DNA of 32,766 nt from positions 1-32,766 of the forward strand of contig SYHX01000075.1 of the NCBI GenBank assembly GCA_005799025.1, in the 5' to 3' direction. Of this stretch, positions 475 through 6,518 are shown in pieces. The notes beneath the pieces were generated by a model, which did no database searches, had not been told where the DNA came from, and saw nothing but the letters and a program-made list of their open reading frames with translations. This stretch comes from Bacteroidota bacterium. Its GTDB lineage: Bacteria > Bacteroidota > Bacteroidia > UBA7662. A program made the translations under genes and the position numbers. Position 1 is the stretch's first letter, and every line of letters begins with the position of its first letter.

Positions 475-1794
475 ATGTTGCAACAACTAACCGACAAGAA
501 TCGGCTCACCAAGGCCCATACCCAAGCCTACCGTTCTAGTCTAGCCCTCAACCGAAATGCCGCTGGATTTAGCAAGGAATTCAAGGAAGGTATCTACACC
601 CTCGTTTGTGATAAGGCGTCCGGGCCTTATGTCCACGATTTGGATCAAAATAAGTATATTGATCTTACCATGGGCTTTGGTTCCTTGCTTTTTGGGCATA
701 ATTATGAACCGATACGTCAGGCAATTCAAGATCAGTTAAGTCAATCCTGGTCTGTAGGCCCTATTTCTCCTTTGGCGGGTCAATTGTCCCAAGAAATTGT
801 TCTAGCCACCGGCGTCGAGCGGGTGGCTTTTTTTAATTCGGGAACCGAAGCCGTCATGGTGGCTTTGAGGTTAGCCAAGGCTATTACCCAGAAAAAGCAT
901 ATTGTTTTCTTCAAAGGATCCTATCACGGGACCTTTGATTCTTTGTTATCCCTCAAAAATGATCCCCATAGCGGAGTGGCCAAAGAAATGGTTCCAGGGG
1001 TTACCCAAGGTATTCTCAACGAATCCTATCTATTGGAATACGGATCCGAGGAAAGCTTGGAGTTTATTCGTAAAAATTCGGATCATATTGCAGCTGTCTT
1101 AACGGAACCAGTTCAAAGCCGTAATCCCGGTTTGCAACCCCGGGCTTATTTGCATGAACTTCGAAAGATTACGGAAGAAAAGAACATCGCCTTGGTTTTT
1201 GACGAGGTTATCACTGGGTTTCGCATCGGCTTGGGAGGAAGTCAGGAATATTTTGGGGTACAAGCCGATATTGTAACGTACGGGAAGGTCATAGGGGGTG
1301 GCTTGCCCTTGGGGTTGGTGGCAGGCAAGGCTCGTTTTCTTGATGCCACCGATGGTGGATTTTGGCAGTACGGGGATGATTCGGGACCGGTGGTCAAAGC
1401 CACTTTTGTCGCAGGTACCTTTTGTCATCATCCCTTGGCGATGGCCTCGTCGCTCAAGGTTCTTGAAATTCTTCGAAATTCCAATGGCCAAATTTTGCAT
1501 GACCTGAATCAAACAACGGCTGCCTTATGCGACCGATTCCAGAAATTTTTTGATCAAAACAAATATCCTATTTCGGTTCATCATTTTGGGTCCTTATTTC
1601 GGTTTACCACCCCTGGTAAGTCCAGTCTGCTTTATTATCAACTTTTGCTCAACGGGGTTTATGTATGGGAGGGTCGTAATTGTTTTCTTTCACCATCCCA
1701 TACGCCGGATGTTTTGGAAAGATTGGAGGAGCAGTTGATCCAATCGTGTTATGCGTTGGAGGCCCAGGGCTTGCTTAAGAAATCTGCACCATGA
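475..1794 (+). CDS. PLP-dependent class-III aminotransferase, resembling glutamate-1-semialdehyde aminotransferases and the AMT domains of hybrid PKS/NRPS enzymes
   Basis: Motifs DLTMGFGSLLFGHN, VAFFNSGTEAVMVALRLA, GSYHGTFDS, TEPVQSRNPGLQP, FDEVITGFR, TYGKVIGGGLPLG (PLP lysine). Confidence 0.9.
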   Translation: MLQQLTDKNRLTKAHTQAYRSSLALNRNAAGFSKEFKEGIYTLVCDKASGPYVHDLDQNKYIDLTMGFGSLLFGHNYEPIRQAIQDQLSQSWSVGPISPLAGQLSQEIVLATGVERVAFFNSGTEAVMVALRLAKAITQKKHIVFFKGSYHGTFDSLLSLKNDPHSGVAKEMVPGVTQGILNESYLLEYGSEESLEFIRKNSDHIAAVLTEPVQSRNPGLQPRAYLHELRKITEEKNIALVFDEVITGFRIGLGGSQEYFGVQADIVTYGKVIGGGLPLGLVAGKARFLDATDGGFWQYGDDSGPVVKATFVAGTFCHHPLAMASSLKVLEILRNSNGQILHDLNQTTAALCDRFQKFFDQNKYPISVHHFGSLFRFTTPGKSSLLYYQLLLNGVYVWEGRNCFLSPSHTPDVLERLEEQLIQSCYALEAQGLLKKSAP

Positions 1795-2849
1795 ACCCTG
1801 TTGTTCTTTTGGAAGAAGACTCCTTCCGCATATTGCGGCATGAAGGTATACCCGCTGAGGCGCTTGCCTTCTTGGATGAAATAGCTTGGGGCAGCGAAGG
1901 CGCGGTTTACGAAAACAAGAACACCAAGGAACACAGCCGCCATATACATCGCCCAGTCCTCATGGCGATTCATTCAGGTGATCAAATATTAGCGACGGCC
2001 GTTTTTTGTCATACCAAGGTTGGGATTGCTGCATCTTATCTTAATTGTTATTATGTGCGGTATTTTGCCTCATCCCCCAAAATCAGAGGACAGGGGCTTA
2101 TCAAAAAATACGGTATTCGTGTCATGGAATTGGTGAGGGAAGACGTTCATGCCCCTACGGTCTTTTTTGCCTGCGTGGAGCGTGGTAACAAACCCTCTTT
2201 CAAAACGGTCCAAAGCGCAGGTTATCAGCATACATGGACCGCTACCACCAACGGGTTCAGTCGATTTTTCCCCAGGTCCATGGAGGGGGTCGAGCAAGTG
2301 ACAACGCCGACGCAACGCGAGGAAGTACTTGCTTTGTTAGGGACCCAGTACCGCGAACATGCATTGGTTCAATTTGATTCCATTTTCTTGCATGATCAGT
2401 ATTACATATTGCGTATCAAAGGTCAAATCGTCGCCGGTCTTCAATACCATCGTGCCCATTGGGTGGTTAATCGTATGGCAGGCTGGTCAGGGAAGTTATT
2501 ACTCAAAATATTACCTCAAATCCCATTGCTAAATCGCATTTTTAACCCAAATAAATTTGAATTTTTGGCCTTGGAGGGCATTTATATCCGACCAGGATTC
2601 GAAAAGGAATGGGGCAGGCTTGTTGAAGATGTTTTGGTCAAAACAGGCATGCGATCCGCGATGTATTGGATGGGTGCAACTTGTCCAATTCGAGAAAGAA
2701 TTCAAGGGGCTGTGGGCCCCGGATTATTGCATCCTTTTGTTAAGGATTCGGATGTTTATGTTATGGCATCTTTTCATGATGTAGATAAGGGAAGGATACA
2801 ACAAATTCAGACCTTACCCTTGTACGCCTCCGGGTTTGATTATGTTTAG
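1791..2849 (+). CDS. GNAT-like N-acyltransferase
   Basis: ATGA overlap with the aminotransferase stop; FASSPKIRGQGLIKKYG and GNKPSFKTVQSAGY resemble GNAT acetyl-CoA-binding and C-terminal motifs. Confidence 0.6.
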   Translation: MNPVVLLEEDSFRILRHEGIPAEALAFLDEIAWGSEGAVYENKNTKEHSRHIHRPVLMAIHSGDQILATAVFCHTKVGIAASYLNCYYVRYFASSPKIRGQGLIKKYGIRVMELVREDVHAPTVFFACVERGNKPSFKTVQSAGYQHTWTATTNGFSRFFPRSMEGVEQVTTPTQREEVLALLGTQYREHALVQFDSIFLHDQYYILRIKGQIVAGLQYHRAHWVVNRMAGWSGKLLLKILPQIPLLNRIFNPNKFEFLALEGIYIRPGFEKEWGRLVEDVLVKTGMRSAMYWMGATCPIRERIQGAVGPGLLHPFVKDSDVYVMASFHDVDKGRIQQIQTLPLYASGFDYV

Positions 2850-3891
2850 TCGATTTTTGGAACGATTGGATATCCTTTGGCACTGGAAATCATGGCCATG
2901 GGAAATACTTTACTTTCCGGTTACCCTGTATGTGGTCATGGTGGGTTTGATCCGCTCCGGCCATGTTTTTTACTTTGCGGCGGCAAACCCCAAATTACCC
3001 CTTGCAGGTTTTGCCGGAGAATCCAAACATGAAATTATTCAGAGGATTCCGAAGGAATGGAAGCCTAAAACATTATATGTTACAAATCAAGATACCCTGG
3101 ATGAATTAGCCCCCAAGATATCGGATTTGAACATGTCTTATCCGCTCTTTGTTAAACCCGATGTGGGAGAGGGCGGTTATTTGGCGACGAAGGTGGACAG
3201 CTGGGAAGATCTGAAAGTTTATCATGAAAGCCATGCTATGAACTACCTTGTACAGGATTTTGTGCAACACGAATTGGAGGTTAGTGTATTGGTGCACAAA
3301 GCGATGGGTTCACTGCAAATAAGCAGCATTACGGAAAGAAGCCATCTAAAATTGGTTGGAAATGGGACTTCTACCGTTCGGGATTTGTTGAAAGGCATAC
3401 CCTTTATTCGCCATCGTTTATCGAATATTTTGGCCAAATGTCAATCCTATGCCGATTTGGTTCTACTGGATGGGCAAGTATGGGAACCGACCTCTCTAGG
3501 TAATTTGGATTATGGTTCTGCTTATTATGATATCACTAACCAGTCTATCCCCCTATTTAGAAATGTCTTGGAATCCATTAATGATCAAGTGGATTTATTT
3601 GATTATGCCCGCTATGATTTGAAAAGTGCAAGCAGGGAAGATTTGTTTAACGGCAAATTTCAAATTTTAGAAATTAACGGTGTCAAAGGCTTACCGATTC
3701 ATATTTATGATTCCCGTTGTAGTTTTTGGAACGGGCAACGAGAAATATTCAAACACTGGGGATATGTTTTAACCCTTAGCCAACGTAATCAAAAACAAGG
3801 CGCCAAGGTCCCTGGATTTCGTCAGGGGCTAGCCTATTTAATTCATCATCAACGAACTCTTCAATTATCCTTAAATCCTCGAATATGTTAA
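2836..3891 (+). CDS. ATP-grasp ligase with an N-terminal hydrophobic segment
   Basis: YPLFVKPDVGEGGYLATKV, YLVQDFVQHELEVSVLV, SHLKLVGNGTSTVRDLL, FQILEINGVKGLP resemble D-Ala-D-Ala-ligase-type ATP-grasp motifs; overlaps the upstream CDS by 14 nt. Confidence 0.75.
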   Translation: MIMFSRFLERLDILWHWKSWPWEILYFPVTLYVVMVGLIRSGHVFYFAAANPKLPLAGFAGESKHEIIQRIPKEWKPKTLYVTNQDTLDELAPKISDLNMSYPLFVKPDVGEGGYLATKVDSWEDLKVYHESHAMNYLVQDFVQHELEVSVLVHKAMGSLQISSITERSHLKLVGNGTSTVRDLLKGIPFIRHRLSNILAKCQSYADLVLLDGQVWEPTSLGNLDYGSAYYDITNQSIPLFRNVLESINDQVDLFDYARYDLKSASREDLFNGKFQILEINGVKGLPIHIYDSRCSFWNGQREIFKHWGYVLTLSQRNQKQGAKVPGFRQGLAYLIHHQRTLQLSLNPRIC

Positions 3892-4331
3892 AAAGTCCCT
3901 TTTTCTTCCTTGTCGTACTGCTTACTTATGAGCCGTTACTCGCTCAAAATAACAAAATTAGTCACTCGTTAAATCTCACAGGGGGTACGTTCCTTTTGTT
4001 CAACTAAGGGTCCTTGCATTATGAACTGCTTGAAGAACGTAGGCACGTCCATACTTTTATCCAAAGCGGATTGAGCTTGGGCTATGATTTATGGAACGAG
4101 AAGTTTATTACAACACCTTTTGCTCGGTTGGGGTTTTTGGCCGGAGCGAATTCCCATTATTTTGAGGCAAGCGCGGGTGCTGGTTTGTACATATGGTCGG
4201 GTGATGGTCCGGAATTGCTGCCATCCGCAACTGTGGGGTATCGGAACCTTAATCTGGATGGTCGTAGTATTGTTCGTTTTGGCATAGGTTTTCCGGACCT
4301 CCTTTATTTCGGTTATGGCTGGCGTCTTTGA
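3885..4331 (+). pseudogene. Short outer-membrane beta-barrel-like protein interrupted by one in-frame TAA (4005-4007)
   Basis: ATG 3885 gives MLKSPFFFLVVLLTYEPLLAQNNKISHSLNLTGGTFLLFN*, then the same frame continues GSLHYELLEERRHVHTFIQSGLSLGYDLWNEKF...LYFGYGWRL to 4331. Confidence 0.7.
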
Positions 4332-6376
4332 AGAGCATCCTCGGTTTGAATGCGCTGGCGGTAAAAGCGATGCATGGTGACCACATGGGGGAAGCTCAGG
4401 CAAGCGAGGAAGACAAAGAACGAGCCTTCGGGCCCAAAGTCCAGGGGCGGGAGCCAATCCTTGAAGGTGTAGAACATTCCCATCAGGAGCCAAGCGCCGG
4501 AATGAAAGGGGAGGGCGGCCCTCCAAAGGGTGGGCGAACTAAGTTGGAGACCCCGTCGCAAATCCCGCCAACCGATTCGGCTGTGTTGGCCGATGAAATA
4601 CAAACCAAAGGCGTGCATCAAGGGGAGTTGCGAAGCAATCATCAACCATAGGGACGTCCAGAACAACGCACTCTGACGGTGGTAAACCCCTGCAATGGTC
4701 CAAATCGTCATAAAACCCACCGGCAGGGACCAGGTTGTATCGCGTTGGGTCATGGCCTGCACGATGTTACGGGTTTCTTCGGGATGGGTGCCGGTGATGT
4801 AGGCCAGGACCGACAGCCCCCATGCCAACGATAGGAAACGGTTCATTCCCCAGGAACGCCCATCCGCTTGGCCAAAATGCCAAGCCGAATACCCCACAAA
4901 AAACAACAGACTCCACCAGGGCCACAGGAACCAAAACCATAACATCAACAATCCCAGCCCAATATAAACCAGTACCATGGCGGGTGTGGGAAGCCTTTGG
5001 AGCCGTCCGCTTTGTAACAAATGATCAACCGCTCCGTGGGGCAGTCCCAGGAGGACCATGCCCAGGACCAGACCCAGATTGGCCACCACCGAATAAACCG
5101 AAGGCAGGGCCTGCAGGCCCATCAAAAGAAGAGCCAATAACAACAAACGCAAAGGCCAGCTGACGTGACGCTCCCACAGGGCGACCAAAAAAGGCTTCCA
5201 GGGCAAATGCATCAACATCCGCAGATCGTATTGCCAAGTGGATTTTTCGTCCATAAAGCGCAGGACCGAGGAAAGGGGTGTGCCCGCAAAGAGTTGTTCA
5301 AAAATCATTTTGCCTTGATGGGGGCGCCGGCGCAGAATATGCAGGAGCAGTCCGTCCAGGAAGGCGTAGCGGGGATGGGCGTGTTGCGGTTTCCAGGGCT
5401 TTGTTGTAGGGACACGAGCATCGAGTTGCTGATGGAAAGAGGCATGGGCTGCCCAATGCTGTGCCAGTTCCTGCGCTTGTTGGTGCATGGTCTTGAATGC
5501 GTAACCGGTGCTGGGCTTGAGGGCGTGGTTGCGGGTCCCTATGGGCACCACGCCGTTGAGGCGATGGCGTTCGCTGAGGGGGTTGCGATGCTCGGCCATG
5601 GGAATGATGCCCTGCTCCCGGTGAGTGATACGGTACGTGGCTTGGTCCGGCAAGGCGTCCCTGAGGTAATCGCGCAGGCGTTGTTCGGCCAATTCGGCCT
5701 CCAGGATCGCGGTACCAAAACGTGTGAGCTCTACCAGAACCCGGTTCTCCGCAAAGGGCAGCATGTAAACAAACTGCGTAGCCCCGTCCTGCGGCACCTC
5801 CAAATCCATGAGGGTCACCCCCGCATCGCTTTGCCAAGAAAAATCCGTTTCCACCACCCACCCGTAAAAACTCTGCGCCAAATCAGGCTGGGCCATATCA
5901 GGTTGTGCCGAATCAATAGGCATATTATCAAGTTGGGGCGGTCGGGAATCCAGGACCCACCGAGCCCGCACCTTCTCCGACCCGCAAACCGCATAGGCGC
6001 CTTGGTCATCAGCGCCCACGCTCTCCACCGCCTCGGCCCTCAGTTCCCAGCCGTTGGCCGCCATACGCTGGCTCAAATCCTCGTAGAGGTCCAGGCTGTT
6101 GACCTGGTGGTAACGTAGTGGGGCGATCGAAACCAGGGGCTCCCGCCCACCGCGCGCCTTCTCCCACGAATGTCCAATCAAATCCCCCAAGTCCGCCACC
6201 ACCGGTTCCGTATCCTCCGCCCAGAAACAAAACGTCTTGTCGTTACGGCTTTTGGGGTCCGGGTCCACGAACAAAACCCGCTGACCGGCCAACAAACCCG
6301 CTCCCTCCAACGCACGCGCTGTTAGGGCGGCTGATGCCCCTCGGCCCACAAAGAGAAAGTCCACGTCCCTTGCCAT
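4313..6376 (-). CDS. Fusion protein: N-terminal lycopene beta-cyclase (CrtY-like) and C-terminal Brp/Blh-like beta-carotene 15,15'-dioxygenase
   Basis: N-terminal half: DFLFVGRGASAALTARALE, NDKTFCFWAED, FYGWVVETD, YMLPFAENRVLVELTRF, GIIPMAEHRNPL, SSVLRFMDEKS. C-terminal half: GLPHGAVDHLL, GYSAWHFGQAD, YFIGQHSRIGW, SFPHVVTMHRFYR in a multi-TM context. No stop across the junction near 5170. The tracked ORF starts at 6421; the ATG at 6376 (MARDVDFLFVGRG) is the better start. Confidence 0.9.
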   Translation of the reverse strand: MARDVDFLFVGRGASAALTARALEGAGLLAGQRVLFVDPDPKSRNDKTFCFWAEDTEPVVADLGDLIGHSWEKARGGREPLVSIAPLRYHQVNSLDLYEDLSQRMAANGWELRAEAVESVGADDQGAYAVCGSEKVRARWVLDSRPPQLDNMPIDSAQPDMAQPDLAQSFYGWVVETDFSWQSDAGVTLMDLEVPQDGATQFVYMLPFAENRVLVELTRFGTAILEAELAEQRLRDYLRDALPDQATYRITHREQGIIPMAEHRNPLSERHRLNGVVPIGTRNHALKPSTGYAFKTMHQQAQELAQHWAAHASFHQQLDARVPTTKPWKPQHAHPRYAFLDGLLLHILRRRPHQGKMIFEQLFAGTPLSSVLRFMDEKSTWQYDLRMLMHLPWKPFLVALWERHVSWPLRLLLLALLLMGLQALPSVYSVVANLGLVLGMVLLGLPHGAVDHLLQSGRLQRLPTPAMVLVYIGLGLLMLWFWFLWPWWSLLFFVGYSAWHFGQADGRSWGMNRFLSLAWGLSVLAYITGTHPEETRNIVQAMTQRDTTWSLPVGFMTIWTIAGVYHRQSALFWTSLWLMIASQLPLMHAFGLYFIGQHSRIGWRDLRRGLQLSSPTLWRAALPFHSGAWLLMGMFYTFKDWLPPLDFGPEGSFFVFLACLSFPHVVTMHRFYRQRIQTEDALQRRQP
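5873..5917 (-). repeat. ~15-nt imperfect tandem repeat inside the CrtY half
   Basis: Encodes IDSAQ-PDMAQ-PDLAQ; DNA units aatcaggctgggcc / atatcaggttgtgcc / gaatca. Confidence 0.6.
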
Positions 6377-6518
6377 TTGGCCTAAGTTATTCCAACGGCG
6401 GCTTTTTTGAGCACATGACAACCCACAAATTGCATCATGGTATATCAGCGTTTTGACCTTATTTTTTAATTAACAAATATTTATAATCAATGGATGGACA
6501 TACGTAAATTTTTAAAAC

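Follow-up and report, generated by a model that had tools for sequence, protein, structure and literature searches.

Results

A single open reading frame encodes lycopene cyclase and carotene dioxygenase domains

The DNA analysed is a stretch of 32,766 nucleotides from a Bacteroidota bacterium (contig SYHX01000075.1), referred to below as the window. On its minus strand, a frame runs uninterrupted from position 6421 (TTG) or 6376 (ATG) down to a stop codon at 4313-4315. Translation probably begins at the ATG at 6376, which is preferred because the closest full relative (L009, 69% identical) starts at the same place; the resulting crtY-blh fusion gene (4313..6376, minus strand) would encode 687 amino acids. 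The first-pass annotation had given a 702-aa product; the frame is indeed open that far, from the upstream TTG, but the likely start yields the shorter protein. Its claim that one uninterrupted frame carries both enzymes was confirmed by the Pfam search it had proposed: an FAD-type lycopene cyclase and a Brp/Blh dioxygenase were found, each of them complete and matching its model far above the curated cut-off and over nearly the full profile. Elsewhere in the window (475-3891), the plus strand carries what resembles a small biosynthetic operon: three overlapping genes coding for a class-III aminotransferase, an unknown protein of 352 aa, and a weakly ATP-grasp-like protein of 351 aa.

The FAD-dependent lycopene cyclase (CrtY) domain occupies residues 6-396 (5189..6361, minus strand). 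It matched Lycopene_cycl (PF05834, 3.6e-50) with 171.6 bits against a gathering threshold of 23.4, covering profile positions 1-375 of 380. The G11/G13 dinucleotide-binding motif (GxG) and E216 are, together with F51 and W52, invariant in an alignment of 74 fusions, and G11, G13, F51, and E216 align with the annotated CrtY of Pantoea agglomerans and with a Streptomyces lycopene cyclase family protein. E216 is the counterpart of the Glu in the LIED motif of the Pantoea enzyme (E196), which we take to be the known catalytic acid. Scores against the NCBIfam CrtY equivalog TIGR01789 (66.4 bits, cut-off 215.2) and the subfamily TIGR01790 (111 bits, cut-off 209.5) fell below the cut-offs; these are naming thresholds, and assignment to the broader class of FAD-dependent cyclases rests on Pfam, with no claim to the exact equivalog. 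Since the equivalog cut-off is not reached, the profile does not settle beta-ring specificity or bicyclisation.

The Brp/Blh-type beta-carotene 15,15'-dioxygenase (BCD) domain follows at residues 439-669 (4370..5062, minus strand). It matched PF15461 (2.8e-30) with 106.3 bits against 28, covering profile positions 2-264 of 267, and also passed the cut-off of NCBIfam TIGR03753, blh_monoox (120.8 against 95.25).

The junction between the two domains comprises residues 397-438 (~42 residues; 5063..5188, minus strand), in agreement with the earlier placement near base 5170; AlphaFold2 secondary structure and the spacing in the 74 fusions support it. In the AlphaFold2 model, the end of the cyclase passes without a long linker into hydrophobic helices 407-421 and 425-449, so that membrane helices come immediately after a Rossmann-type FAD domain in the predicted fold. 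The model, built from the alignment of the 74 fusions, has a pLDDT of 88 and a pTM of 0.82; a model of the dioxygenase alone, made without an alignment, was discarded (pLDDT 55, pTM 0.25). Foldseek matches were geranylgeranyl reductases and other FAD enzymes and reflect the cyclase half only, while a sequence search of solved structures with the fusion returned no match.

A missed stop codon or frameshift at the junction, which would have undermined the first-pass reading, is excluded, because dozens of genomes, each assembled independently, share this single-frame joint, and the distance from F396 to H447 hardly varies among the 74 sequences (50-58 residues). Within the genus, purifying selection acts on both halves across near-full length, with dN/dS of 0.18-0.25 for the cyclase and 0.13-0.20 for the dioxygenase (~0.13-0.25 overall); one cyclase fragment of 100 codons gave 0.38.

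Histidine residues of the dioxygenase half

H447, H500, H598, and H664 are common to 35 fused and 33 other Bacteroidia BCD sequences. The first three are also invariant in the 74 fusions, and H664 is present wherever the sequence extends to it. H531 and W603 are typical of the fusions, being invariant there; H531 was found in 18 of the 33 other BCD sequences. In Blh of the uncultured marine bacterium 66A03, His21, 78, 188, and 192 are each reported to be essential in the review PMC9227343, which cites Kim 2009. Counterparts of three of these four are present in the fusion as H447, H500, and H598, the equivalence being set only by motif and via BCDs of other classes.

The position of H192 is taken by Gly602 in the fusion, and by Gly, Ser, or another residue in the compared Bacteroidia BCDs, whether fused or single, while eight BCDs from other classes have His there. 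Loss of H192 is therefore a trait of the Bacteroidia lineage that was not caused by the fusion. From the alignment, either H192 would be dispensable in the Bacteroidia subfamily or another residue would replace it; as the position is not His, the metal site must either be built differently or draw on H664 or H531 for its completion. H531 is a candidate substitute.

The fusion is widespread among Bacteroidia

The first-pass annotation had treated the fusion as a departure from normally separate genes. It is instead a common architecture: when related genomes were searched as that annotation had suggested, BCD matches were obtained in 72 of 395 sampled Bacteroidia genomes (71 above the cut-off), and at least 32 of the 395 encode an intact fusion, always as a single frame of 650-718 aa with the cyclase first. 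Five further fusions in this sample are broken or run off a contig end. The search of 84,980 species genomes confirmed 402 relatives, and 75 of the best 80 loci hold a single-frame two-domain fusion. Most of the best-matching fusion genomes are MAGs, and lakes or ponds are named in many of their titles; those titles that come with NCBI ranks point to Flavobacteriales, Chitinophagales, Saprospirales, Cytophagales, and Sphingobacteriales. Three fusions belong to a family outside class Bacteroidia (G560, G575, and G668; L244-L246), and in at least one of them (L244) a rhodopsin lies downstream of the fusion. Another fusion locus, L161, is from a MAG titled Candidatus Kapaibacterium. No relative turned up when viral contigs were scanned with the fusion alignment, nor when phage records were searched with the dioxygenase half.

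Several individual loci deserve mention. In a genome of the same genus (G014 contig C30, L003/L226), the fusion frame is split by indels inside the cyclase near residue 360, reflecting either an assembly error or a pseudogene. G081 carries, in addition to the fusion, a separate truncated-looking BCD adjoining a rhodopsin (contigs C1 and C2). A BCD within a 958-aa frame in G585 was rejected as a fusion, since this long, GC-rich frame does not match a cyclase.

Rhodopsin and other carotenoid genes

A rhodopsin is encoded in 31 of the 32 fusion genomes (Fisher p 3.6e-22, uncorrected for relatedness); in the remaining one, G249 (84% complete), a rhodopsin was sought and not found. The rhodopsin gene lies within 3 kb of the fusion in 20 of the 32, 17 times directly upstream on the same strand, and in the named loci it adjoins 56 of the 75 fusions, in most cases co-oriented and no more than 150 nt away.

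The absence of a rhodopsin from the window, noted earlier, is real: the single rhodopsin of this genome is on another contig, C12. It has the D-T-E pump motif and the Schiff-base lysine, and among solved structures it is closest to proteorhodopsins. Carotenoid genes were likewise located on other contigs. Contig C51 (L075, 444-5796) carries a crtI - crtB - unknown 186-aa gene - crtD-like - cruF-like cluster, which suggests acyclic or monocyclic hydroxy-carotenoids as the main pigments. Two polyprenyl synthases and a CrtZ-like FA_hydroxylase (a ring hydroxylase candidate without an NCBIfam name) are encoded outside C51.

A search of this genome for a second CrtY-type cyclase found only the fusion, and none was found in 27 of the 32 fusion genomes, this one included. 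A stand-alone CrtY from a different lineage is present in two genomes of the same genus (G014 and G018). The gene neighbouring the stand-alone CrtY of G018 also has no close match in the genome studied here, so an assembly gap may explain the missing enzyme.

Origin of the fusion

The BCD tree unites all fused domains in a single clade (support 100/99), which also holds one apparently single-domain member (L033) and two sequences at contig edges. In the cyclase tree, a single origin of the fused cyclases was not rejected (p 0.52). There, crtY from three unfused operons linked to rhodopsin or blh (L026, L029, and L037) falls together with the fused cyclases, and this group stands apart from ordinary stand-alone CrtY. 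In unfused neighbours, the distance from the crtY stop to the likely blh start is -29 to +4 nt, i.e., the genes abut or slightly overlap, and they could therefore be fused, with nothing lost, by a small indel or stop loss ahead of the crtY stop. Unfused rhodopsin-crtY-blh operons are thus the likely precursor.

Fusions of the window's own family do not form one clade (p 5.8e-5), which points to horizontal transfer. The single-domain dioxygenase L033 (G237 C146:2263-3006), nested in the fused clade, has a different gene upstream and is possibly a product of fission; G237 also has a second single BCD beside a rhodopsin.

Discussion

The fusion very probably is a membrane-bound bifunctional enzyme that makes retinal for proteorhodopsin in two steps, from lycopene through beta-carotene. 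From sequence and its genomic setting we infer the two activities, the metal site, any channelling, and that the first half yields beta-carotene. The N-terminal FAD-dependent cyclase would close the ends of lycopene at the membrane surface, giving beta-carotene. The multi-helix Blh domain at the C terminus, its metal held by His ligands, would then split beta-carotene at the 15,15' bond, and the two resulting retinals would load the co-encoded proteorhodopsin. The fusion most likely arose once, by in-frame joining of neighbours in a rhodopsin-crtY-blh operon, and then spread horizontally through Bacteroidia together with rhodopsins. Counting against this reading are the lack of His at the H192 position, the location of this genome's rhodopsin on a separate contig, the failure to find a rhodopsin in G249, and the cyclase score below the equivalog cut-off. 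The first-pass view of two consecutive steps leading to retinal is borne out by the domain searches, the residue conservation, and the rhodopsin linkage. Its proposal of a dedicated retinal synthase is only partly supported, as the lack of a detected second CrtY-type cyclase in 27 of the 32 fusion genomes means that the cyclase half may also feed other pigments.

How the intermediate moves is where two of the readings part. The fusion could act as a channelling synthase, taking in lycopene and giving out retinal without release of beta-carotene, and so maintain a private retinal branch for rhodopsin; we advance this tentatively. Channelling, if it occurs, would let cells that otherwise make acyclic or monocyclic pigments keep such a branch. 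Alternatively, and with a likelihood approaching an even chance, the domains work independently in the membrane, and their joining fixes only one-to-one expression and transfer as a single gene; both activities are kept, and only the path of the intermediate differs from our preferred explanation. The unfused relatives, in which stoichiometry is already coupled by abutting or overlapping genes of one operon, agree with independent domains, as do the scarcity of second CrtY enzymes, given which free beta-carotene may be needed elsewhere in the cell, and the CrtZ-like ring hydroxylase candidate in this genome. However, the single frame and its nearly constant spacing over deep divergence speak weakly for more than co-expression, as does the whole-model pTM, which might suggest a defined domain arrangement, and L033 is the only apparent reversion to a stand-alone dioxygenase seen.

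It is improbable that the cyclase closes one end only, giving gamma-carotene, or has another ring specificity, in which case the dioxygenase would act on a monocyclic carotenoid and yield one retinal and an acyclic aldehyde. The CrtD-like and CruF-like enzymes of this genome, typical of acyclic or monocyclic hydroxy-carotenoids, would fit such chemistry, and so would the score of the cyclase half below the equivalog cut-off; against it, the cyclase is close to crtY of rhodopsin-crtY-blh operons, and Blh enzymes are known for cleaving beta-carotene. That the fusion is two genes joined by an assembly or sequencing artefact has a negligible probability: the broken frame in G014 indicates that such errors or mutations do occur, but recurrence of the joint in 75 of the best 80 loci, independently assembled, and the strongly supported clade refute it.

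The proposed two-step synthesis of retinal by one fused protein matters because a cell's access to retinal determines whether a rhodopsin gene is of any use to it. A one-gene, two-step retinal module travelling with rhodopsin would help explain the spread of rhodopsin phototrophy among lake Bacteroidota. The fusion should be recognised in annotation, as pathway checks that expect separate crtY and blh genes can miscount. As a compact natural enzyme, it would also lend itself to the engineering of retinal or vitamin A production and to tests of channelling of a hydrophobic intermediate.

A search of the open-access literature found no description of a CrtY-Blh fusion. The nearest relatives within Bacteroidia are the unfused rhodopsin-crtY-blh operons (e.g., in G279, G174, and G103), which have the same two enzymes in the same order with rhodopsin beside them, but as two abutting or slightly overlapping genes rather than one. 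The 66A03 Blh shares the family and three of the four essential His residues with the fusion; it differs in being a single-domain protein and in having H192, which the Bacteroidia type lacks. In Verrucomicrobiota rhodopsin operons (PMC10284914), a CrtIB fusion is found, with crtY and blh listed as further genes of the cluster. It resembles CrtY-Blh in that successive enzymes of the retinal pathway are fused within a bacterial rhodopsin cluster, but it joins phytoene synthase and desaturase, i.e., the early steps. Thecamonas trahens has a four-domain CrtI-CrtB-CrtYc/d-Blh protein (PMC10016063), in which cyclase and Blh likewise share one polypeptide with the cyclase before Blh. That protein is eukaryotic and its cyclase is of the unrelated CrtYc/d membrane type, whereas CrtY-Blh is bacterial, has two domains, contains an FAD-dependent cyclase of the CrtY type, and is linked to rhodopsin. 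Fusing consecutive carotenoid enzymes is already known, and CrtY-Blh appears to be a new combination.
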